Below are positions 39,058 to 57,608 of a DNA stretch of 64,000 nt, one piece after another. The stretch is from Bacillus sp. REN16 (lineage in GTDB: Bacteria; Bacillota; Bacilli; Bacillales; Bacillaceae_L): positions 266,054 through 330,053 of the forward strand of contig NZ_JAJFZK010000007.1 in NCBI RefSeq assembly GCF_020731355.1, read 5' to 3'. The translations under genes were made by a program, and so were the position numbers. The notes under the pieces were generated by a model. The model saw only the letters and a list, made by a program, of their open reading frames with translations, did not search any database and was not told the origin of the DNA. Each line of letters opens with the position of its first letter. Within the stretch, counting starts at the first letter, position 1.

Positions 39058-39291
39058 TTACTCCACCGGCTTTGCCCAAATAAGGTGAATAGCATTAAGC
39101 ATATATCGTTCTGATTTAACAACAGACAGTGGTGATTCCTGCACAAGCTTTAGAATGTCGCGATTCATATGACATCCCACTTTTTTTAAATGAAAGGAGT
39201 TTGTTATATTTTGTAGCCAGGCAAGCAAGGAGTTTGTACTAATTCCATGCTCGTAGAGGAGAAGCTCTTCAAATCTATTTTTCAGTGACTC
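39058..39291 (-). pseudogene. C-terminal remnant of a class I SAM methyltransferase
   Basis: A 77-codon open stretch on the minus strand without ribosome site reads LLLYEHGISTNSLLAWLQN, then KKVGCHMNRDILKLV, SVVKSERYMLNAIHLIWAKP. EHGxS, GCxxNRDI and the C-terminal strand pattern are those of UbiE-like methyltransferases of about 200 residues. The SAM-binding N-terminal half is absent; the frame runs into the 3' end of the VanY gene. A deletion that fused the two regions is the simplest explanation. Confidence 0.65.
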
Positions 39292-40084
39292 CTAGATACT
39301 CTTCTAATGTAAGTCCGTGTTCTGTCATATATTTCGCATGTTCGACACCAACGTAGCGAAGATGCCACGGCTCGTACATATAGCCGGTGATATCCTCTTT
39401 CCCAAGTTGAAAGCGGATGATAAATCCATACTCTTCTGCGTGCTCAGCAAGCCATTTTCCTTCTACCGTTTCTCCATATTCTTGTACAAGCTGGTTATCG
39501 ACACTATCACTTGTTACATCCATCGCAAGACCGGTTTGGTGTTCGCTCTGCCCCGGTTTAGCACTAAAAGTACTCGCTGCTTCTTCTCCATTTGCACGAA
39601 CATAAGAATCATAAAGATATTCCTGTGTACCAAAAGAGCGGTAGCCAGATTGTGCATGTAATGTAATTCCGTCATTACTTGCAGCAGCAAATAATTGTTC
39701 CAATGCGTCCGCAGCTTCTTTTACCATCTGCTTACGCTCAGCTACGGAAGTGGAAAATGCTACATTGGGAACCGCAAGATTTTGTGGTACATATGTTTCA
39801 TCTAACACTCCTACTTCTTTATTTACTAATAATAGAAACGGATCATTTGGATCAATGGCAGGTTTCACATCCTCTGGAGCCACTTCCGTCTGTTCACCTG
39901 CTGTTTGAGTTTCAGGTGCCGACACGATTTCCTCATCGTTTTCTTTACTTAAAGCAATTTTTCCAACGACAACTTCCTTAATCGAAGTATAGCTTTCTTG
40001 TAAAATATCAGAAAAAGCTTCCCTCGTAAAAAATAGAGAGGACGCCACTAATATAAGAATCAACCCGATAATAATCTTCTTCAA
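39275..40084 (-). CDS. D-alanyl-D-alanine carboxypeptidase, VanY/LdcB family
   Basis: 269 residues from a TTG at 40084 (GAGG seven bases upstream; the longer frame to 40159 lacks a ribosome site). N-terminal signal anchor (about 5-22), a Glu-rich linker, then the peptidase M15B domain with zinc ligands in SEHQTGLAMDV and EPWHLRYVG. Acts outside the membrane, trimming D-Ala from peptidoglycan stem peptides. Monocistronic. Confidence 0.9.
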   Translation of the reverse strand: MKKIIIGLILILVASSLFFTREAFSDILQESYTSIKEVVVGKIALSKENDEEIVSAPETQTAGEQTEVAPEDVKPAIDPNDPFLLLVNKEVGVLDETYVPQNLAVPNVAFSTSVAERKQMVKEAADALEQLFAAASNDGITLHAQSGYRSFGTQEYLYDSYVRANGEEAASTFSAKPGQSEHQTGLAMDVTSDSVDNQLVQEYGETVEGKWLAEHAEEYGFIIRFQLGKEDITGYMYEPWHLRYVGVEHAKYMTEHGLTLEEYLGVTEK

Positions 40085-40225
40085 TGCTATTCCTCTTCCC
40101 TCATTCGATCTGTTTTTATTTCCATCTATCATTCTACTATATTTTACATAAATCGACACAGGGAATTAGTTGTAAGTTTTTAGCATGAGAAAAGTACTAG
40201 AGGAGTGAGGAACAAATTAGCCACC

Positions 40226-40262
40226 AAAAAGGGCATGCACCTTTAAATCAGGTAGCACGCCC
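40226..40262 (-). terminator. Terminator of the Wadjet operon
   Basis: On the minus strand GGGC-GTGC-ACCT pairs with AGGT-GCAT-GCCC, followed by TTTTTGG, 15 bases after the jetD stop. Confidence 0.75.
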
Positions 40263-40276
40263 ATCTGTCATTTATT

Positions 40277-41563
40277 TTAATTCCTAAATGTGTACATTTC
40301 CTTTATATCATTAACCATTTCTCGCACGAGTGCTTCTTGATATCCTGCGAGTTTTGTTTCCTTCATGGCGGAAATCACGTCTTCCCATTCCGGTGAAGAA
40401 ATTCGGTCAAGTTTGCTCAGTCTAGTTGAAATATCTTCATTTGAAAGTGAATCTAGATAGGATTTCTTATCCATTCTCCATAAAAGAACATTTTCCTTAT
40501 ATCGTTCTTTGAGCCGATTTGCAATTGATATTCCCTCTGGGTCCAAATCACCGGAATAATATAGTAGGCAGTTTTCTGCTACTAATAGGTCTAATAATCT
40601 CCAGCCTGCCATCCTTACTTGACCATGTGTGCAGACAATGGGGGCATCAGGAACTATATCCATTAAAGTTGAAGCAACACTAGAGTTTTCAACTACCCAA
40701 ACCCTATTCCCTTTGACAGGTACAACCCTGTCTATTTTCGTCAACTCTTTCATTGGAATGTTCATAACTGTTTGGGACATAGCTGCTGCTTTCCAAACAG
40801 GGTGGACTTCATCATTACGGGATGCAAGTAAACTTTGACAAGTTACAAAATTCCACAAATCATCGCGCATTAATCGATATTCTGCCAATAAATCATTTAA
40901 TTCCTCGATGCTTTTAGGCATAACTAAATCCGTGCTCCAATGAAGGAGTTGATCAACATACAAACAATGAATAAATAGTTTGCCTCCTACTTCATTATTG
41001 TCAAAGTAGTGTGGATTTCCAGTGATCCGTTGAGAAAAGAAGGGAAGTCTTTCAAACTCTCCTTCTTTTGGCAGTTTTGAGAACGCCTTACAAATCGTTT
41101 GAATCATTTCTCGAAGATTGTCCCTGTCCATTTTATATAACGACCAAATCCATCTTGTGTCTGGCTGTTTAGACCGAATCCAATCAATCCACCAGCTCAT
41201 ATCGGGGGAATCTATCGAATTGAAAAAAGCAGCTTCTTGATCTCGGGCAATCTCTAACTCTTCCTGTTTTGTTAAGATTTTTTCGTGCAGGACTTCTTCC
41301 AGTAAAGATAGTAAAGTAAAATCTTCAAACCCGGTATTTGCTAACTCTTTTTCAAAGTCTAATAAGGAAATGGTTCCCTTTTGTAAAATTTCCCCTATGG
41401 GTTTACCTAAAAAACCTGCAATTGATTCTAGTTCACTTCGATCAAATCCATTTATTCTAACGGTTCCTCCGATTCTGCCGAGGGAGCGATATTTTTCTTT
41501 AAATAAGTGAAAAAGCTGAATAAAACCCCGTTCTCCTTTAAATACATTTACTCTATTATTCAT
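40277..41563 (-). CDS. jetD: Wadjet nuclease subunit JetD (TIGR02679/DUF2399, Toprim)
   Basis: 428 residues. The N-terminal part (about 1-190) corresponds to the DUF3323-type arm, the C-terminal part to the DUF2399 Toprim fold related to topoisomerase VI/Spo11 A subunits: conserved Glu292 in VVENSSV and the metal-binding Asp339 and Asp341 in SGDLDPEG. In Wadjet, JetD cuts circular plasmid DNA after loop extrusion by JetABC. The start overlaps the jetC stop by eight bases. All key residues are present, so it should be active. Confidence 0.92.
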   Translation of the reverse strand: MNNRVNVFKGERGFIQLFHLFKEKYRSLGRIGGTVRINGFDRSELESIAGFLGKPIGEILQKGTISLLDFEKELANTGFEDFTLLSLLEEVLHEKILTKQEELEIARDQEAAFFNSIDSPDMSWWIDWIRSKQPDTRWIWSLYKMDRDNLREMIQTICKAFSKLPKEGEFERLPFFSQRITGNPHYFDNNEVGGKLFIHCLYVDQLLHWSTDLVMPKSIEELNDLLAEYRLMRDDLWNFVTCQSLLASRNDEVHPVWKAAAMSQTVMNIPMKELTKIDRVVPVKGNRVWVVENSSVASTLMDIVPDAPIVCTHGQVRMAGWRLLDLLVAENCLLYYSGDLDPEGISIANRLKERYKENVLLWRMDKKSYLDSLSNEDISTRLSKLDRISSPEWEDVISAMKETKLAGYQEALVREMVNDIKEMYTFRN

Positions 41564-44500
41564 TGGTTACAAGCTCCGCAAACCCTTGCTCCTCATCGAT
41601 AACAAGGGATTTTTTCTTTCCATCCCATTGATAACGAATAACCGTCACAAAATCTGCATTTTTTGGGCGTACTAATTCTGCAATAGACAGGCTTGAAATC
41701 GTGTCATAGTCTCCCCAAAGTGCCTGGGAGTTCATAATATAATTGAAACCGAGCTGTTCTACGACTTCAAACATGTCGCGAATATTATTTTCATCCACAC
41801 CTGCAAATGCTTCATCTAGTGAAATAATATATGGTGCCATATCACCAGCTTCTTTATAGCGTGAATATGCTGCAGTGAATAGAGGAATGTACATCGCCAT
41901 TGCTTTTTCCCCACCGCTAAATTTAAAGAAGGCATTGTTTGTTAACTCTCGCTTTTGTTCGTTAACACGACTGAAAGATAGGACAAATGTAAACCATTTG
42001 CGATAATCCAGGACTTCTTTAAGAACTTGATGAAGTGTTGAGCCTTCATTCTTTAATTGAATAAGTTCTTTAGCTTTGGCAATCCGTGATTGGAAATGTT
42101 TGGTGATTTTGTTTAAATCCTCTTCACTTAAAAATTTGCTGTTTCTCTGTAAAAGCTGAACAAGTTCGCTCGTATCCAACTCCTGCTCTGATTCCGCAGT
42201 TAATGGTTTCCACGCTATCGAGAAAATTAATCCCGAGGAATTATCACGATCCGCCATAATTTTATCCATTTTCTTCACCCATTGCTGTGCTCTTTGGATT
42301 CGGTTGCGAAGGATTGTGCCTACAGTATTTACAATAATATCTTCATACAACTGTCTGTCCTGTTCATCAAGCCAGCCTTTTTGCTCCTCTAGTTCTTTCG
42401 TTAAAGCAGATGAAACAAAATAAGGATTGACACGCTGTCCCCTATATTCCATCTGAATCACGCGTCTTCCTTTTAACGAAATCCACTCCGCTTTAAATGG
42501 TTCATATTGGTCACCATAATCGTTATGAAACCACTCTGGAAGATCTGCTTCTTCTGTATATTCAAACATTCTGTATTCAGTTAAATGCGTTTGTTCATTG
42601 AAGAAGACCTTAGTTAGTTGCTCTAGTAGCTTTGACCGTTCATACTTTGTAAATACGGGTTCTAATTGTTCAAAAAGAGTCGCAGCATCATTTCCATCAA
42701 CCGGCACAAAGCCTTGCTGTTTTTCCTTCTCCACAATTTTTTCCCACTCACGATTCATGTTCTGCCAAAAAAGAAGATCATTTTTAGCTTCTTGAAGCTT
42801 TTCAAAGCATAGACTTTGGTTTGCTTTCGTTTGCGGTAAAGCATCCGAAATAAGTTGAATTTGGTTTTCTGCCTCTTTTAATGCTAACTGAACCTCTTGG
42901 ATACGTCTTCTAACTTCATTAATACCCTGTAATTGAAGCTGTTGTTCAATTGAAATAATTTCAGCCTTGATTTGATTCAACTGGGATTTTCGAATATTTT
43001 GTTCCCCGGCAATCTCATCCAAATCACCCTCTATTTCTTCGATTCGCGATAGAATATCTGAAACCTCTTTCTTTGTAAAGAAAATTTGGATGGATACATT
43101 TTGAAACTGGTTAAGATGTTCGGAATAACTTTCCGCAGCTTCTAAAGCTGTTGAAATATCCGCCTTTGTCAAGGATATGTTCAGATGAATGCCATGTTCA
43201 CGTAATTGTTTCTTTACATCATTAAGATGATCATATACATTTTTCCAGTCCTCATCAATTTGGCGAAGAAGATCCTGTTCACGTTTGAATTCTTGTTTCT
43301 TTTCTACGATTTGTTCATTCAATTCCGCTAAATCTTTGTCATCAGGAAGTTCTTTCTTCCATCTATCAATCAGCTGTTGTTCTACCACAAATCTGTTTAA
43401 CTCGTTTTGTAAATCAGATAGCTCTGTTTCCAGCGTAATAACCAATTCCATCCAAAGTTGAATTTGTTCCTTTTGATGTCGTTTCCTTGATGCACGTCCA
43501 ATAAATTTTGAGTTTTCTTCATATGGTGCGTGACCAACTAAACAGCCTAAAGAGTATGAACCATCAATATCAACGTGAAATCCACTTCCATCTTTTTCTA
43601 GTGATATACTTCTGAGAACTTCATCAATTTTTTCTTTTGAAATTGGACTGTTTTCGTCAACATCTGGCATTAAATAATCAGCTAGTGTATAACCCAAAAG
43701 ACGTGGTTCGGCCACAAGCACTGCATCCTGTTTAGGTGATAATGGGTGATCTGTAATTAAGCTATCTAACATACCTACCCTTTTCAAGGCCGATTCGATT
43801 CGCTCTTTTTGCTCCTCCGTAACATGTTCACGAAATTCAACAGCTGCATAAAATGGTAGAAAAGCTTGTCCCTCCTCCTCCAATTTTCCACGGAATTCAT
43901 TCGTTCCCGCTGCCCTTTCCGGATCAACCATTTTTTGATTTTTAATACGTGATAATTCTTCTGCTGCTTCCGTTATTTCCGTTTGCTTACGGTCCATTTT
44001 ATCTGATGTAATGGCAATGTTCTTTTTAACCTCTGCCTCATAATCATGGATCGCTGAATACAACTTATCACGAACCTGATCGAAACGATTCCGGTCATAG
44101 AGACCTTGCAGGGATCTTGCAATTTCCTGGCGCATTTCTAATGGATATTCTAATTTTGGCCGTTCTTCTATCCATTTGAAAACAGCACTCTCGAGTTGTT
44201 GTTGTTGTTCCTCAAACCACTTCTCGAGGTGATCTATTTCTTTTTGGCATTCATCCACAATTCTCTTCTTTTCCGAGGATTGGCGCCCAAGACGGGAATA
44301 TTCCTCCCCCAGCCTTGTTTGTTCCACTGCTAGTTTTTCCAATTGGACCAAAAGGGCGCGATGTTCTTTTGCTTCCTTTAACCAAACAGTAAAATCAAAA
44401 GATTCGGTTTGTGCTCGTTCAAAGTCGTTCACATTGACCTCATGCTGTGCAAAAGCGGATTCTTTGGACTCTGCATCAAGTTCTTCAAGTAATTCCGAAG

Positions 44501-45668
44501 CCCTTCCTTTTTGCTGAACAAGCCTTGTTTCATTTTCTTCTTTTTCCTTCCAGAACCGATTCAATTTGTTATTTTGGTCTGCCCACTTATTTTCTAGCTT
44601 ACCTATTTCTTGTGTTAACGAAAGAGAATCTTTTTCTTTTTCGGATTTCTTTTCCTCTAAGGACCATACCTCATGCTTTTGTAAAGAGTTTTTCTCCTGC
44701 TCAGCGATATATTTTTGTTGGAGGTATGTCGTTTTATCTTCGGTAAGCTTTGTAATTTCCTTTTCATAATCCTCGAGCTGTTTCGTAAGTTCTTCAACCT
44801 GCTTTTTAGCAGATGTACTCTTCTTTTCTGCACGCTGCCACTGGTTTGCCCGTTCTGCTAAAATAAATTTATTATAGGAATCATATACAGATGCAACCCT
44901 TGCAATAGAATCATATTCTCTTTCTAATTGTTCCAGCTGCTGGGCTGCCTGATCCATATTTTCAATCGTATCTGACAAATGCCTTAACTCATCATCCGTA
45001 AGTGGTGGTAAAGCTGATTCTAAGATTTCATAGATAACAGTTGGTTTAAAATCCTTCGAGAGCTTTGGACTTCTTAATTGAATTAATAATTTTATTAAGT
45101 CCTCATAGGCATCTATCGAATTAAAGCCAAATACGTATTTGTTCACAAGCTCCATATATTCGCGTTGCGTATTAACAACAAAGCCACCATTGCCAATACG
45201 ATTGTCTAATTCTTTTGCTGAAAGTGGTACCATATCCCCGGCAAATTTCTGCGAAAGGTGAAAATCGTGACCTACCCGACGATTATCTGTAATCAAAAAA
45301 TACCAAGATTTGATTCCTTTATTTCGTTTCGCCTGCATCCCAATCCCGGTTGTAATATACTGCTCGGTATCTCTTTTTTTATATTCGATAAACAAATAAC
45401 CAGTCCGTTCATCACGATCAACCACTTCTTTTTCACCTAGTAAATAATCTTCCATTCTTCTAGCCTTAGAGCCGAATGGGTCAAGACGATCTGGTGTCTT
45501 TTTTCCATCTAATAAAACAGGTAGGAAACTTTGCATCGTTACTGATTTCCCAGAACCATTCGAACCTCGTAAAAGGAGCTTTCCATCTTCAAAATGAAAA
45601 ATCTCTTCATCGTAGTACCAAAAGTTTAATAGACCTGCCCGATTCATCACCCATCTATTGGTTGCCAT
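41556..45668 (-). CDS. jetC: Wadjet SMC-like ATPase JetC (TIGR02680)
   Basis: 1370 residues with SMC/MukB architecture. N-terminal ATPase half with Walker A GSNGSGKS (35-42), long coiled coils (about 270-500 and 730-980) around a hinge-like middle containing FLPFYAAVEFREHV, and C-terminal half with ABC signature FSGGEKAMAM (1250-1259) and Walker B ISLDEAF (Asp1285). The motor extrudes DNA loops and senses small circular DNA. The start follows the jetB stop directly (TAA-ATG), with GGAGGAG inside the end of jetB. Confidence 0.93.
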   Translation of the reverse strand: MATNRWVMNRAGLLNFWYYDEEIFHFEDGKLLLRGSNGSGKSVTMQSFLPVLLDGKKTPDRLDPFGSKARRMEDYLLGEKEVVDRDERTGYLFIEYKKRDTEQYITTGIGMQAKRNKGIKSWYFLITDNRRVGHDFHLSQKFAGDMVPLSAKELDNRIGNGGFVVNTQREYMELVNKYVFGFNSIDAYEDLIKLLIQLRSPKLSKDFKPTVIYEILESALPPLTDDELRHLSDTIENMDQAAQQLEQLEREYDSIARVASVYDSYNKFILAERANQWQRAEKKSTSAKKQVEELTKQLEDYEKEITKLTEDKTTYLQQKYIAEQEKNSLQKHEVWSLEEKKSEKEKDSLSLTQEIGKLENKWADQNNKLNRFWKEKEENETRLVQQKGRASELLEELDAESKESAFAQHEVNVNDFERAQTESFDFTVWLKEAKEHRALLVQLEKLAVEQTRLGEEYSRLGRQSSEKKRIVDECQKEIDHLEKWFEEQQQQLESAVFKWIEERPKLEYPLEMRQEIARSLQGLYDRNRFDQVRDKLYSAIHDYEAEVKKNIAITSDKMDRKQTEITEAAEELSRIKNQKMVDPERAAGTNEFRGKLEEEGQAFLPFYAAVEFREHVTEEQKERIESALKRVGMLDSLITDHPLSPKQDAVLVAEPRLLGYTLADYLMPDVDENSPISKEKIDEVLRSISLEKDGSGFHVDIDGSYSLGCLVGHAPYEENSKFIGRASRKRHQKEQIQLWMELVITLETELSDLQNELNRFVVEQQLIDRWKKELPDDKDLAELNEQIVEKKQEFKREQDLLRQIDEDWKNVYDHLNDVKKQLREHGIHLNISLTKADISTALEAAESYSEHLNQFQNVSIQIFFTKKEVSDILSRIEEIEGDLDEIAGEQNIRKSQLNQIKAEIISIEQQLQLQGINEVRRRIQEVQLALKEAENQIQLISDALPQTKANQSLCFEKLQEAKNDLLFWQNMNREWEKIVEKEKQQGFVPVDGNDAATLFEQLEPVFTKYERSKLLEQLTKVFFNEQTHLTEYRMFEYTEEADLPEWFHNDYGDQYEPFKAEWISLKGRRVIQMEYRGQRVNPYFVSSALTKELEEQKGWLDEQDRQLYEDIIVNTVGTILRNRIQRAQQWVKKMDKIMADRDNSSGLIFSIAWKPLTAESEQELDTSELVQLLQRNSKFLSEEDLNKITKHFQSRIAKAKELIQLKNEGSTLHQVLKEVLDYRKWFTFVLSFSRVNEQKRELTNNAFFKFSGGEKAMAMYIPLFTAAYSRYKEAGDMAPYIISLDEAFAGVDENNIRDMFEVVEQLGFNYIMNSQALWGDYDTISSLSIAELVRPKNADFVTVIRYQWDGKKKSLVIDEEQGFAELVTNE

Positions 45669-46829
45669 TTAGACTTCTCCTCCTTCAAAATCATCAGGGT
45701 ACGAGCCTGTCAACACCCCTAAGATTGGCTTCATTTTAATTAAGGAACTTTCTTCTTCGATTTCAACCATCATCCAGTTCTTCATGGCGGCTATTAATTC
45801 AGATCGAACAGTGCTAGTCGTTTTTTCGCGGAAATATTTGGCCCAGCCATTTTCATACTGTTGACGCAGATTTTCTAGAACGGCATCAAGCTCTCCTTCA
45901 GTCATCACAATTTCCCCGTTTTCCTTTGGAGTAAACTGATCAAGATGTTGGTGAAGATAGTCAGATAGTTGTAAAAGAATATCTGTTGACGCCTTTGAAT
46001 TTGGATATACTTGCTGGTACTGTTTCGGCTCGGCCACCGATAAAAAGGCTGTATTCTTATAGACATGCAATTTGTAATCACTATGATTTTCAATATCCTC
46101 AGCTAATCGGTTCCGGTAATTACGAATGTATAAAAAGTCAGGATCTTGAAGATCAACACGATGCAGAGATGGTGAAAAGAATAGCTTCCGATAAACTCTT
46201 TTTCTACGTTCATCTTCTTGATTGAGTTTCCAGTCCTCATTTAATAGCTCTTCCCAATTTTTATAACTTACAAAATCATCTGGGTATGAACGCATAAAAT
46301 AGCGGCTGTAAACAGTCGCTTCGTATAATACTTCCTGTTCTTCATCGTGATCGAATCGACCAATATCTCCGTCAATGGTTCGGATTAATTGGAAATCGAG
46401 TAATACCTTAATCGCACGAATAAGCGATTTTCTGTGGATATAAAGTGTCCAATCAAGCGCAAATTCCCCAGGATAATCCGCCTGAATCTCTTGGCTTATA
46501 TCCGACAATAAAAACTGTTCATCCACAGATTTCCCTTCAAGAAATGACAGTGCACAACAAAAAATGGCATAATCCATTGGCTCCTGAAAATGACTTATCC
46601 CCATCCAGCCTTGAGGTTCAACGGGGATTTTCTCAAGCTTGATAAAATGCTGATGGACAATGAGTCTTAGTCCGAACTTCTCATTGATATAGCGACGGAT
46701 AACCTTTTCACGTTCGCGAATAAGCTGATACCATTCCGGATGATCGGCACGTAAAATCCAGTAATAATTAAATAAGAGGTCCATGCCATGGCTTGCTTTC
46801 TCATCAAACTCAAGCGTTTGCTCCCTCAT
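45669..46829 (-). CDS. jetB: Wadjet subunit JetB (TIGR02678/DUF2398, MukE-like)
   Basis: 386 residues, mostly helical with winged-helix character. Early stretch DHPEWYQLIREREKVIRRYINEKFG followed by KLEKIPVEPQ matches the DUF2398 pattern. It corresponds to the KITE/MukE-type dimer that binds the kleisin JetA. It overlaps jetA by four bases (ATGA) and touches jetC, so expression is tightly coupled. Confidence 0.88.
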   Translation of the reverse strand: MREQTLEFDEKASHGMDLLFNYYWILRADHPEWYQLIREREKVIRRYINEKFGLRLIVHQHFIKLEKIPVEPQGWMGISHFQEPMDYAIFCCALSFLEGKSVDEQFLLSDISQEIQADYPGEFALDWTLYIHRKSLIRAIKVLLDFQLIRTIDGDIGRFDHDEEQEVLYEATVYSRYFMRSYPDDFVSYKNWEELLNEDWKLNQEDERRKRVYRKLFFSPSLHRVDLQDPDFLYIRNYRNRLAEDIENHSDYKLHVYKNTAFLSVAEPKQYQQVYPNSKASTDILLQLSDYLHQHLDQFTPKENGEIVMTEGELDAVLENLRQQYENGWAKYFREKTTSTVRSELIAAMKNWMMVEIEEESSLIKMKPILGVLTGSYPDDFEGGEV

Positions 46830-48328
46830 CCCAATTCACTTCCTTGCTCCTCAAATTCAAAACGTACATCAGGCATTTTCAATGTGCCATCCTCTGATTC
46901 TAGTAAAATTCTTTTACTATTATCCATTGTTACCTTTACAACCATTCCATAATCTGTTTTTACCTTACGATTTTTATTTGCCATTGATTTACCAATCCAA
47001 CTAAGCAACACCTTACGAACAAAGGGATCTACCTGTGAAATTTCTGATAACAAGATGACTCCCTCATGCATATATTGATCGATAAGCGCTCGTTCTTTCC
47101 TGCGCTCTTCCAAATACTCTTCCCGCTGTTGCATTTTCTTTAATGTGTTAGAAGTCATCGCACCGGGCTTCGTCTTTTCCCGATATCGATTTGTTCTCGG
47201 TTTTATGGATAAATGAATTGGCGCCTCTTCCCATGTATCGGAATGCAAATTATCGGTAGTACCTTCCTCAAGTTGAAGATGTTGGATCGTCATTGCCCCA
47301 AAAACAACTGAAGATAGCTTATGTGCCTCATCTAATGTTGTACTATTTGCAAACCAATTCGCCAAATGCAGGTAATCATTTTTCCGACTTCGAAAATGTT
47401 GTTGTCTTTCACCAATTCGTTGAACATATCTTGTCATTCGACGTATCATTTCATTTGTTTGCCATTGTAACATGTCCAATTCACTTTCATGGGTACTGGA
47501 ACCTAAAAACCATTGCCGTAAGGAATCCCAGTATTCTTTGTACTCTACACGCCATTCCTCGACTTCTGATGAAACATCCTCCAAGCGTGGAATAGACTTA
47601 CGATGTTCAATTAATTTTTCAAAAAATGGACTTAATTTTTGTGGTGATAACTCATGTAATCTCTCACCAATTTGAAGGGAGGTTTTTTGTAATGAAACAA
47701 TAAAATCCCTCAAATAGGTTGTAAACTGATTTTTATAAACAAGAAAGGCTTCGGTTTGCATCCTTTGGTCTGTTTGTTCACTATTTATATAAGCGATATA
47801 ATCAGCAGTACTTGTACGGATCGTTTGGAAATAACGAAAAACATCCTCCCACATCCTCATATATTCTTCAGCATCTTTTGTTAAATGGGGATCGAGTTCA
47901 TGCTCTAAGCCGATAATTGCTTGTAGTAGTCGATCAAACTGGGATCGTTCCAATGAACCTTGGAAAGTATCTCCTACCTTTTTTTCAAGAACAACAAGCA
48001 TTCTTTCAATCTCAATTGTGTATGGGGTAGACTGATAGCGAAAACGTTTCTTCTTGTATTCTTCAACCGTCTTCGCATTTGTCATATCTTGTCTGGCAAT
48101 CAAATTGTTCCACTTCACAAGTTGCGCCAGTTGCTGATGCAACTGATCTTCCTGATAATCAGAAAAATGAGGAATCGAGCGCATATATTCTAAAATTTCT
48201 TCCGGTGCAATAAAGTCTCGCATTCGCTCATGCTGATGATAAAAATATCGTAATATAGTCCGATATTGAGCAGCAGAATCCGCTGTCAAATAACTAGCCT
48301 CTATCACTTTTTTCATCGTAACGTCCAA
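46826..48328 (-). CDS. jetA: Wadjet kleisin-like subunit JetA (TIGR02677/DUF2397)
   Basis: About 500 residues from a TTG at 48328 (AAAGGA 8 bases upstream), giving the family's usual N-terminus KKVIEASYLTADSAAQYRTILRYFYHQHERM, a DUF2397 hallmark. A longer frame reaches 48514 but adds residues not typical of the family. Helical middle, low-complexity linker near 410-450 and C-terminal region with DYGMVVKVTMD. MukF-like kleisin bridging the JetC heads. First gene of jetABCD; no transcriptional regulator is intact next to it. Confidence 0.88.
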   Translation of the reverse strand: MDVTMKKVIEASYLTADSAAQYRTILRYFYHQHERMRDFIAPEEILEYMRSIPHFSDYQEDQLHQQLAQLVKWNNLIARQDMTNAKTVEEYKKKRFRYQSTPYTIEIERMLVVLEKKVGDTFQGSLERSQFDRLLQAIIGLEHELDPHLTKDAEEYMRMWEDVFRYFQTIRTSTADYIAYINSEQTDQRMQTEAFLVYKNQFTTYLRDFIVSLQKTSLQIGERLHELSPQKLSPFFEKLIEHRKSIPRLEDVSSEVEEWRVEYKEYWDSLRQWFLGSSTHESELDMLQWQTNEMIRRMTRYVQRIGERQQHFRSRKNDYLHLANWFANSTTLDEAHKLSSVVFGAMTIQHLQLEEGTTDNLHSDTWEEAPIHLSIKPRTNRYREKTKPGAMTSNTLKKMQQREEYLEERRKERALIDQYMHEGVILLSEISQVDPFVRKVLLSWIGKSMANKNRKVKTDYGMVVKVTMDNSKRILLESEDGTLKMPDVRFEFEEQGSELG

Positions 48329-48528
48329 AACAATCATCCTTTCGGGACACAGGATTGGATCAAGGGTTCCTTTGACCACAGCAACTAGTCCCACGTCTTT
48401 ACAATAATCTATTAGTACTATTTTATCGAAATATATATAACAAGGGAAATAGGAAGTCGTAAATTGGGGGAATTTGCCTGATATTGCGCTTGGTGTGATG
48501 TTTTCTGGGTTCAAAAGTCATTCTTTTT

Positions 48529-48561
48529 AAAAAATAACAAAGGAACAGCACCTGTCCCTTT
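48529..48561 (-). terminator. Terminator/REP-like hairpin after the AraC-type pseudogene
   Basis: AAAGGAACAG/CTGTCCCTTT form a near-perfect 10-bp stem with a 3-base loop, followed by GTTATTTTTT on the minus strand. A related GGAAC...GTCCC hairpin occurs at 54541-54566. Confidence 0.65.
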
Positions 48562-48565
48562 GTCT

Positions 48566-48937
48566 TCAACTAGATTTGTTTTTCCGAAATTGGCTTGGGG
48601 TCATGCCATTTAGTTTTTTAAAACAATTGCTAAAGTATGCCAGATCGGAGTATCACAGTCTCGCGGCAATTTCCGATACTCGCAGAGAGGTATGTTCAAG
48701 TAAACGTGCAGCCTCTTGTAAACGTACATTCACAATATAATCGCTAAAATTTGTTCCTGTTTCCTTCTTAAACAACTTGCAAGAATAGCTCGTGCTTAAG
48801 TGGGCCTTTTCTGCGGCCTCCGCTAAAGAGACATCTTTAGCAGATGAATGGTCAATATATAAAAGCACCCGCTCGATAGGGGACAGCTCATTCATATTTT
48901 TTGAGGCCTTGTTTTTCCGATCCAAAATTTTGCTCAA
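48566..48937 (-). pseudogene. AraC-family regulator fragment with in-frame stop
   Basis: A 124-codon frame from a TTG at 48937 encodes the two helix-turn-helix motifs of AraC/YesN-type regulators. The first (LAEAAEKAHLSTSYSCKLFKKETG) is intact. In the second, EIAARL is followed by TGA (48653-48655) where the family has Gly (GGA), and then YSDLAYFSNCFKK and MTPSQFR continue in the same frame. The N-terminal receiver or effector domain is absent. One G-to-T type change explains the stop. Confidence 0.8.
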
Positions 48938-54850: not shown

Positions 54851-57289
54851 CTAAGACTCTTCTCGCCTTTGGGCTTTTCTTTCAAAATGATAATGCAAAC
54901 GATATTTACAGATTTCCATTGTCCATTTATAAATGGTTTCAAGATCTTCTTCTAGGACATCAAACGCGATAAAAAATTGATTATCACTAAAATTAACCAG
55001 TCCTTTTGAACTACCACTCCACTTGGTCATAGGCATCTTGGCGATAAGTTTCGCAACCTTTGCTTCATCATAGTCCCATAACCTTTTTGTTTCACCGTCT
55101 GAGAAATCAATATTTTTACGATATTCCTTTTCAGTTAAATATCTGTGAAAAAATGGTGCAACTTCCTCTGGAGTAATGGGTTTAAACCATTTGTTGTCAC
55201 CTCTAGATAACATAGCAAGTAGCACAACCATCTTGTAGCTCTTTGCCATACCTGTTTTTTCAACCTCTATTAACCATGGTTCATACCTTTTGTAAGTTTC
55301 TTTTTCTCTTTCTGATAACTCGTCTGCCCAATATAAAAATCCTGCAAATGATTTAAATTCTGACCTATATTGTGAAGCATCTGCCTGCCCTTTTAAGTGC
55401 AAGTCTAAATAGGTTGGTCTGATACCAAGAGTGATCTTTAAATCCATATAACTATAAAGCAGCTTTTCTTTTCTGGGTTCTCTTTTATTCACTAACTCGC
55501 TCAACAGATCTATAACTTCAACATCAAGATTTATTGAACACGTTTCCGGAATTGTAGGGTGGATATTATTTTTTGTGTTCTTTTTATCGTCATTTTTTAT
55601 ATCAAACAGGCTTAGTTTAACATCGGCATTACGATAGTTTCCAATCAAATCTATAACTACACAATAGTCTTTCTCGGAATGCAGACGTAGTCCTCTACCA
55701 ATTTGTTGAGTGAATACTGTTAATGATTCAGTCGGACGCACAAATAATAAGGTATCTACCGAAGGAATATCCACACCCTCATTAAATAAATCTACAGTAA
55801 AGATAGCATCTAATTCTGAATCCTTTAGCATACTTATAGCTTGCTTTCGTCCAATTGATTGCTGTTGGGAATGTAATGCTACGGTTCGGTAGCCATGATT
55901 ATTAAAATACGTTGCAAGAAATTCTGCTTGTTTAATGGATGAGCAAAATACTATTGTTCTAGTTTTTTTATATTTTTCCCATGATCGAAGTATATTATCT
56001 GCAGTTTCTTTTCGAAGCTGCACCTTAAGGAGTTCGTCCTCAGCATATTTACTACCTAACCAGGTTATTTGTGAGTAATCGGTTTCATCGTAAACCCCAT
56101 AATAACTAAATGGTGCTAACCATTGTCTTTGGATTGCTTCTAAAAAGTCAATTCGATAGGCAACATTTCCCTTACAAATTGCATATACATCCTTATTGTC
56201 ATTCCGATCAGGTGTAGCGGTAATACCTAATAAAAAAACTGGATTAAAATAGTTAATTACCCTTTGATAGGAGTCAGCGGCTGCATGGTGAAATTCATCG
56301 ACTATTATCAAATCAAATTCATCAATTGAAAAAGCCTCCAGATGATGTTTCATACACAAGGTATAAATTGAGGCGAAAACCAGATCAGCCTCACGCTCTT
56401 TACTATTACCATTAAAAATACCACTTTTTCTATTAGGTAAGATATTCTTAAAAGAATTTTGCGCCTGATAGAGGATTTCCTCTCTATGGGCAATAAATAA
56501 AACACGTTGAAAATGCCGGGCAAAAAAACCCGCTAAATACGTTTTCCCTAGTCCAGTAGCCATAACTACCAGAGCACTTGAATATTCCTCTTCAAGGGTT
56601 TTCTCTAGTTCCTCAAGTGCTTCTACCTGGGCAAACCTGGGCTTTATATCCCCATAAGCAACAGTTTCTTCTTTTATGTTATCAGCTTCAATTTTATGCT
56701 TTTGGCTAGGAAGCATTAAATCTAACTCTTCAAGTTGCGTCCATGTATTTACTAGAGAAGGATTCTTTTGATGATACTTCTCATATTCATTTTGATATAA
56801 TTTTACGATTTCAGGATTGACGCTTACCGTATTTTCATGTAAAAAGTGATAAGAAAATTGATCAATTGCCTTTAGAAAAGTATGATTCTTATTGGAAGAA
56901 TCTACAGCTAAATTCCATTCAATACCGGAAGTTAATGCTGAACGAGACAGGTTAGATGAACCAACAACCAACACACCCTCATTTCCATTTTGAAAAATGT
57001 AGGATTTTGGATGAAAAGAGGTCCCGTTACTTCTCCAAAGCCGAACCTCAATATTTTTATGAATACCAATTAGATTCTTTAATGCATCTGGTTGGGTTAC
57101 AAACAGGTAATCCCCAGTACAAATTTTTATATCTGCCCCGCGTTCGGCAGCACGTCTCAAAGATTCATTTAAGACTTCAACACCTGATTTCATTACAAAC
57201 GAAGTCAAAATAAAAATGCTCGAAGACTTCTCAATCTGAACAAGTAAATGTTCTATTAGATTTCTAGTAATTAAATCAATTTTAGTCAT
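54851..57289 (-). CDS. PLD-family nuclease/DEAD-DEAH helicase fusion
   Basis: 812 residues from ATG 57289 (GAGG 6 bases upstream). N-terminal phospholipase-D-like domain (about 1-150) with one HxK motif (His93, Lys95) and VVGSSNLS. Then a superfamily 2 helicase: Walker A MATGLGKT (243-250), DEFH box (331-334), ITATPDR, and QQIGRGLRL. The C-terminal 220 residues are helical and typical of COG1061/COG3886 proteins. The gene overlaps a MazG-like gene by eight bases. A role in DNA repair or anti-phage defence is inferred, not shown. Confidence 0.88.
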   Translation of the reverse strand: MTKIDLITRNLIEHLLVQIEKSSSIFILTSFVMKSGVEVLNESLRRAAERGADIKICTGDYLFVTQPDALKNLIGIHKNIEVRLWRSNGTSFHPKSYIFQNGNEGVLVVGSSNLSRSALTSGIEWNLAVDSSNKNHTFLKAIDQFSYHFLHENTVSVNPEIVKLYQNEYEKYHQKNPSLVNTWTQLEELDLMLPSQKHKIEADNIKEETVAYGDIKPRFAQVEALEELEKTLEEEYSSALVVMATGLGKTYLAGFFARHFQRVLFIAHREEILYQAQNSFKNILPNRKSGIFNGNSKEREADLVFASIYTLCMKHHLEAFSIDEFDLIIVDEFHHAAADSYQRVINYFNPVFLLGITATPDRNDNKDVYAICKGNVAYRIDFLEAIQRQWLAPFSYYGVYDETDYSQITWLGSKYAEDELLKVQLRKETADNILRSWEKYKKTRTIVFCSSIKQAEFLATYFNNHGYRTVALHSQQQSIGRKQAISMLKDSELDAIFTVDLFNEGVDIPSVDTLLFVRPTESLTVFTQQIGRGLRLHSEKDYCVVIDLIGNYRNADVKLSLFDIKNDDKKNTKNNIHPTIPETCSINLDVEVIDLLSELVNKREPRKEKLLYSYMDLKITLGIRPTYLDLHLKGQADASQYRSEFKSFAGFLYWADELSEREKETYKRYEPWLIEVEKTGMAKSYKMVVLLAMLSRGDNKWFKPITPEEVAPFFHRYLTEKEYRKNIDFSDGETKRLWDYDEAKVAKLIAKMPMTKWSGSSKGLVNFSDNQFFIAFDVLEEDLETIYKWTMEICKYRLHYHFERKAQRREES

Positions 57290-57608
57290 CTTCAACCTCA
57301 ATCAAAAAAATTTTTTCTTGAAAACCACCACGTTTTTGTGCTTTTCTTTCACGTATTGCTTCTACTTCATTAAATGAAGATTCATGTGCAACTGCTAATG
57401 CATGAATGATTTCTAGTAGGTCTGCAAGCTCTTCTAAAGCATTTTCTTTATCCGAAGCATTAACATACTCTTCTAACTCTTCAAAGCCCTTTTTCCGTAG
57501 TTCTATAAGGTACTCATCATTTGCAAGTACTCGTGTTGAAAATTTTTTGCCTGTGTTTTCTATGATTTCAGGTATACGGTCACGTACTAATTTCTGGTGA
57601 ACAGTCAT
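57282..57608 (-). CDS. MazG-like nucleoside triphosphate pyrophosphohydrolase
   Basis: 108 residues, all-alpha NTP pyrophosphohydrolase of the COG4997 type. It starts with the phosphoribosyl-ATP pyrophosphatase-like LVRDRIPEII and has metal-binding acidic clusters in FEELEEYV and EELADLLEIIHAL. It would hydrolyse a nucleoside triphosphate to the monophosphate. It overlaps the helicase gene (ATGACTAA), so the two are translated together. GGGG precedes the ATG. Confidence 0.9.
   Translation of the reverse strand: MTVHQKLVRDRIPEIIENTGKKFSTRVLANDEYLIELRKKGFEELEEYVNASDKENALEELADLLEIIHALAVAHESSFNEVEAIRERKAQKRGGFQEKIFLIEVEDD

Follow-up and report, generated by a model that had tools for sequence, protein, structure and literature searches.

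Among the described Wadjet systems, one of the closest to the locus considered here is that of Neobacillus vireti LMG 21834, whose complex is named Wadjet-II in the available text of PMC12647877. According to that text, JetABC motor dimers fully extrude circular DNA, which JetD then cuts. For the purified type II complex, nvJET, it describes cleavage of naked circular DNA, a hinge that lacks a channel and an inability to bypass. Here we analyse a four-gene jetABCD cassette in a stretch of 64,000 nucleotides of Bacillus sp. REN16 (contig NZ_JAJFZK010000007.1, positions 266,054 to 330,053; hereafter, the window). Judged by its sequence, the cassette is a real and intact Wadjet jetABCD operon of type II and not, as the preliminary description of this DNA had it, of type III. 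In total, the data make it very probable that the chromosome here carries an intact Wadjet of type II which restricts small circular plasmids, first extruding them as loops and then cutting them.

Relation to described Wadjet systems

The type assignment rests on profile searches with PADLOC-DB 2.0.0 at an E threshold of 0.001, in which the best models for the four proteins are all of type II: JetA2 (681 bits), JetB2 (511 bits, E 6.9e-154), JetC2 (1644 bits, E 0) and JetD2 (520 bits, E 1.4e-156), the best E-value per gene spanning 7e-154 to 0, which is well outside what chance would give. Similarly, all four proteins pass the cut-offs of the NCBIfam hidden Markov models that the preliminary description had named as a check, i.e. 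TIGR02677 on JetA (409 bits, cut-off 166), TIGR02678 on JetB (241, cut-off 125), TIGR02680 on JetC (957, cut-off 463) and, narrowly, TIGR02679 on JetD (203, cut-off 196). In Pfam, DUF2397 is found above its cut-off in JetA, DUF2398 in JetB, and DUF3323 together with DUF2399 in JetD. The identification as Wadjet jetABCD is thus supported by these searches. Given that the best models are all of type II, the DUF2397/DUF2398/TIGR02680/DUF2399 set corresponds to type II in the PADLOC library; a naming scheme that places the DUF2397/DUF2398 branch as type III would change the label, not the biology.

A true type III system is highly improbable. JetD does match JetD3 models weakly, the best at 27 bits, and type III operons have been reported in Weizmannia (Heyndrickxia) coagulans 36D1, as far as the available part of PMC8954581 goes, a strain that carries a relative of the present cassette. 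However, the JetA3, JetB3 and JetC3 models gave no match to JetA, JetB and JetC at the above threshold, JetD2 exceeds JetD3 by about 490 bits, and the one H. coagulans 36D1 cassette examined is also of type II by all four genes.

The comparison with solved structures points in the same direction. JetA, JetB and JetC match the solved JetABC chains of PDB entries 9qe0 and 9qe1 nearly end to end (JetC to 9qe0_A with 1892 bits, JetB to 9qe0_D with 698 bits and JetA to 9qe0_E with 835 bits), and JetD shares 57% identity with a TIGR02679 protein of N. vireti. We infer that these entries represent the N. vireti complex nvJET and that the TIGR02679 protein is nvJetD; literature searches for 9QE0 and for Wadjet together with DUF2397/DUF2398 returned no paper. 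The present system belongs to another species than that of N. vireti LMG 21834, and its activity is predicted from the sequence. The similarity of JetC to the solved chain runs through the hinge region, the printed alignment ending near residue 1000, which suggests that the JetC hinge also lacks a channel and would therefore bypass obstacles on DNA poorly.

More distant are the type I Wadjet/MksBEFG systems of Escherichia coli GF4-3, Pseudomonas aeruginosa PA14 and Corynebacterium glutamicum. They share with the present system an SMC motor and a Toprim nuclease, and the predicted JetD model aligns with 8b7f and 7til, but their JetA and JetB belong to other families and JetD is here a DUF3323/DUF2399 protein. 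The JetA1 and JetB1 models gave no match under the same PADLOC settings and the JetC1 and JetD1 scores are weak (58 and 43 bits).

A close relative of the whole cassette is found in Bacillus timonensis AF060A6 (G001; loci L033 and L041), in which the A to D proteins are 93, 92, 86 and 79% identical to those in the window, the gene order is the same and a vanY gene also adjoins the operon. The two loci differ in that a pair of ZorAB-like genes lies upstream of jetA in B. timonensis, whereas the genome of the window is without a ZorB-like match.

Operon structure and catalytic residues

As claimed in the preliminary description, jetA, jetB, jetC and jetD lie next to each other in this order on the minus strand, with successive overlaps of 4, 0 and 8 bases and with the given coordinates and lengths (Table 1). 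All four reading frames are intact, and the order A-B-C-D recurs in the related loci L033, L034 and L035.

Table 1. Positions in the window of the jet genes, the predicted terminators and the bordering genes.
Feature	Position	Strand	Remarks
vanY-like D-Ala-D-Ala carboxypeptidase	39275..40159	-	intact; left border, outside the system; Pfam VanY 4.4e-46
predicted intrinsic terminator after jetD	40226..40262	-	12-pair hairpin (four further outer pairs predicted), then five U
jetD, type II, Toprim nuclease subunit	40277..41563	-	DUF3323 + DUF2399/TIGR02679; 428 aa
jetC, type II, SMC-like ATPase	41556..45668	-	TIGR02680; 1370 aa
jetB, type II, KITE-like subunit	45669..46829	-	DUF2398/TIGR02678; 386 aa
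jetA, type II, kleisin-like subunit	46826..48328	-	DUF2397/TIGR02677; TTG start, 500 aa
predicted terminator between the response-regulator remnant and jetA	48536..48564	-	13-pair stem + T run
response-regulator remnant	48569..48919	-	right border, outside the system; residues 132-248 of 248, one in-frame stop

The start of jetA deserves comment because its open frame extends back to a TTG at 48514, giving a form of 562 residues that was used in the first PADLOC, NCBIfam, Pfam and PDB-chain scans. Matches to this form begin at residues 62-76, and a PADLOC rescan with the 500-residue form gave an identical score. The TTG at 48328 is supported by four observations: (i) the counterpart in B. timonensis AF060A6 has a matching TTG start and 500 residues, (ii) DNA similarity to that genome begins at 48345, just 17 bases upstream of this TTG, (iii) the alignment to the solved JetA chain begins at the same place, and (iv) an AAAGGA motif is located 8 bases ahead of it. 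The longer form was rejected, its extra 62 codons being without a match in B. timonensis or in the solved chain.

Predicted terminators flank the operon on both sides and, therefore, jetABCD is likely its own transcription unit. The terminator after jetD has a predicted energy of -23.1 kcal/mol (z -4.7), with 1 of 200 shuffles equally good. A sequence resembling the terminator upstream of jetA follows the intact response-regulator gene in the relative G006; the alternative that the palindrome at 48536-48564 is a mobile repeat was rejected, the genome having one exact and one near copy.

All the catalytic motifs listed in the preliminary description were located. JetC carries Walker A (GSNGSGKS, residue 35), the signature FSGG (1250) and Walker B (YIISLDE, 1280), and JetD carries the Toprim motifs VVEN (residue 290) and GDLDPEG (338). 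E292, D339 and D341 of JetD do not vary in any of the 55 aligned rows; the VIA-align rows for JetD span mainly residues 98-428, the N-terminal hundred residues being scarcely covered. In a fold search, the predicted JetD model matched the folds of topoisomerase VI-A, the C. glutamicum nuclease and JetD.

Selection, distribution and insertion site

In a codon comparison between the window and B. timonensis AF060A6 (contig NZ_SLUB01000047.1), the single pair on which these estimates rest, the ratio of nonsynonymous to synonymous substitution rates (dN/dS) is 0.047 for jetA, 0.034 for jetB, 0.086 for jetC and 0.128 for jetD at a synonymous divergence (dS) of 0.83-0.96, and no internal stop is present in any of the four genes. 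Ratios this low at such a divergence indicate that all four Jet proteins are under long-term purifying selection.

A JetC match was found in 12 of the 60 genomes of the first survey, that of the window included, and in two of nine genomes of the genus; in the family, four of 17 genomes had a TIGR02679 match, which in two passed the cut-off. Outside the genus, a related jetC is in three pieces in G048 (L003, G048:C1:3542362-3546473), with jetB and the start of jetD still recognisable beside it, and may represent a broken or a mis-sequenced Wadjet. In a Meiothermus metagenome-assembled genome (L036), jetC and jetD are on one strand and a jetA-like stretch (22% identity) is on the other; a tblastn search at E 1e-5 found no jetB.

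This distribution bears on whether the cassette could instead be a chromosome-maintenance condensin of the MksBEF/MukBEF type with a Toprim partner and no role in defence, an explanation to which we attach next to no probability. The cassette is missing from seven of the nine genomes of the genus, the equivalent site in G006 lacks it, the nuclease gene jetD overlaps the motor gene jetC, and a separate full-length housekeeping SMC (1221 bits) is encoded at G000:C60:84089-87622 of the same genome. In these respects the cassette is unlike MukBEF/MksBEF housekeeping condensins, which lack a nuclease subunit and act as the chromosome condensin of the cell, and its best matches lie with Wadjet models rather than with the chromosome-segregation MksBEF set.

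The borders of the operon agree in part with the preliminary description, in which gene remnants were proposed as the borders. On the right is indeed a remnant, the AraC-type C-terminal part of a two-component response regulator with 79% identity to a gene of G006 (tblastn; Pfam); on the left, the vanY-like gene is intact and its product is 89% identical to the B. timonensis copy over 279 residues. A near-empty site is present in G006, where 231 bases separate the matches to vanY and to the intact response regulator; the counterpart in the window is about 8.35 kb with jetABCD (40180 to 48529). Beyond the remnant, the right flank of the window jumps at about 48960 to an rsiV-like gene, and about 9.4 kb of G006 between the response regulator and the rsiV-like gene, including a ZorAB-like pair, is missing from the window. 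No tRNA was found in the 64-kb window and no direct repeats of at least 14 bases joining the two flanks in 40160-48600, within which seven two-copy repeat families are chance-like.

The ZorAB-like pair (MotA/ExbB-like and OmpA-like; L041:6563-9068 and L037:2645-5171) is a recurrent neighbour of vanY. A ZorB-like protein is present in seven of eight relatives in the genus, in six of the eight at most 9 kb from vanY, and is absent from the ninth genome searched, G048, outside the genus; the same query, positive in seven of these nine other genomes, gave no match in the genome of the window. We considered whether the pair is part of the system, as it adjoins jetA in B. timonensis, and rejected this: the B. 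timonensis proteins are below the NCBIfam Zorya cut-offs (ZorB1 86 against 400; ZorA 37 against 190 and 30 against 100), G002 and G004-G007 have the pair near vanY without jet genes, and another gene lies next upstream of jetA in L034 and L035.

On the right of the operon, a helicase with a PLD-like domain (PADLOC mREase_IV, 290 bits) overlaps by 20 bases a gene for a 108-residue PRA-PH (MazG-like) protein (22 bits, cut-off 21), the two occupying 54851-57608 on the minus strand. These two genes, some 6.5 kb away from jetABCD, may form a second defence pair.

Proposed function and plasmid content of the strain

By homology with the N. vireti complex, JetC dimers would assemble with the kleisin-like JetA and the KITE-like JetB into an ATP-driven motor dimer. 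This motor would reel in circular DNA until free DNA is exhausted, and the motor would then switch on a JetD dimer, the Toprim site of which (E292, D339 and D341) would make a double-strand cut regardless of sequence. We infer that in this strain the four proteins would likewise assemble, extrude and cut DNA and act in plasmid defence. In Clostridium, deletion of jetABCD raised conjugative transfer by approximately five orders of magnitude, and in Bacillota jetABCD and plasmids under 40 kb are near-completely mutually exclusive, as stated in the available part of PMC12287153.

Several observations weigh against this reading. The arrangement of the JetD domains is uncertain because the predicted template modelling score (pTM) of the model is 0.66 and whole-chain superpositions are loose, with root-mean-square deviations of 5-13 Å. 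Searched by sequence against the PDB, alone or as a five-sequence profile, JetD has no match at E 0.001; on its own, at E up to 10, it finds only two unrelated chains, at E above 1. JetD is also the least conserved subunit (79% identity to B. timonensis against 93% for JetA and 92% for JetB), and promoter-like sites are not above shuffles (29 against 25.1, sd 4.5). Finally, the same genome has a Rep_3 replication protein (L049 10203-11456) on a 56.8-kb contig (G000:C8), so that plasmid-like DNA does occur in this strain.

The promoter result and the Rep_3 contig could also be taken to mean that the type II Wadjet is intact but silent in this strain, either unexpressed or inhibited. We regard this as improbable given the long-term selection on all four proteins seen in the comparison of the two genomes; moreover, the length of the Rep_3 contig is such that tolerance of large plasmids could explain its presence. 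Contig C8 may represent a large plasmid, of 57 kb or more. In the 40 kb of it that were read, frames resemble, by eye, transposases, recombinases and sugar or other catabolic genes. A PF01051 replication gene was found in two of nine genomes, the genome of the window having one such gene, and the location of this sole gene on a 56.8-kb contig is in keeping with the exclusion between jetABCD and plasmids under 40 kb. PF01446 had no match in the nine genomes, but its control was also empty. A restriction system for small circular plasmids remains our preferred reading, and intact frames, conserved catalytic residues and low dN/dS lend indirect support to the earlier proposal that it is active.

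It is conceivable, if doubtful, that jetABCD replaced a resident ZorAB-like pair at a vanY hot spot and that a plasmid of 57 kb or more persists in the host because large or obstacle-laden circles are spared by a closed-hinge type II Wadjet.

The operon is a well-formed but ordinary new member of a known system that has already been studied in a related bacterium. With the type label corrected, an intact and selected type II cassette is added near the biochemically characterised type II complex. The prediction is that the strain would resist small plasmids for as long as it retains jetABCD. Related genomes that either carry or lack the cassette at this one site would be useful for a comparison of plasmid content.
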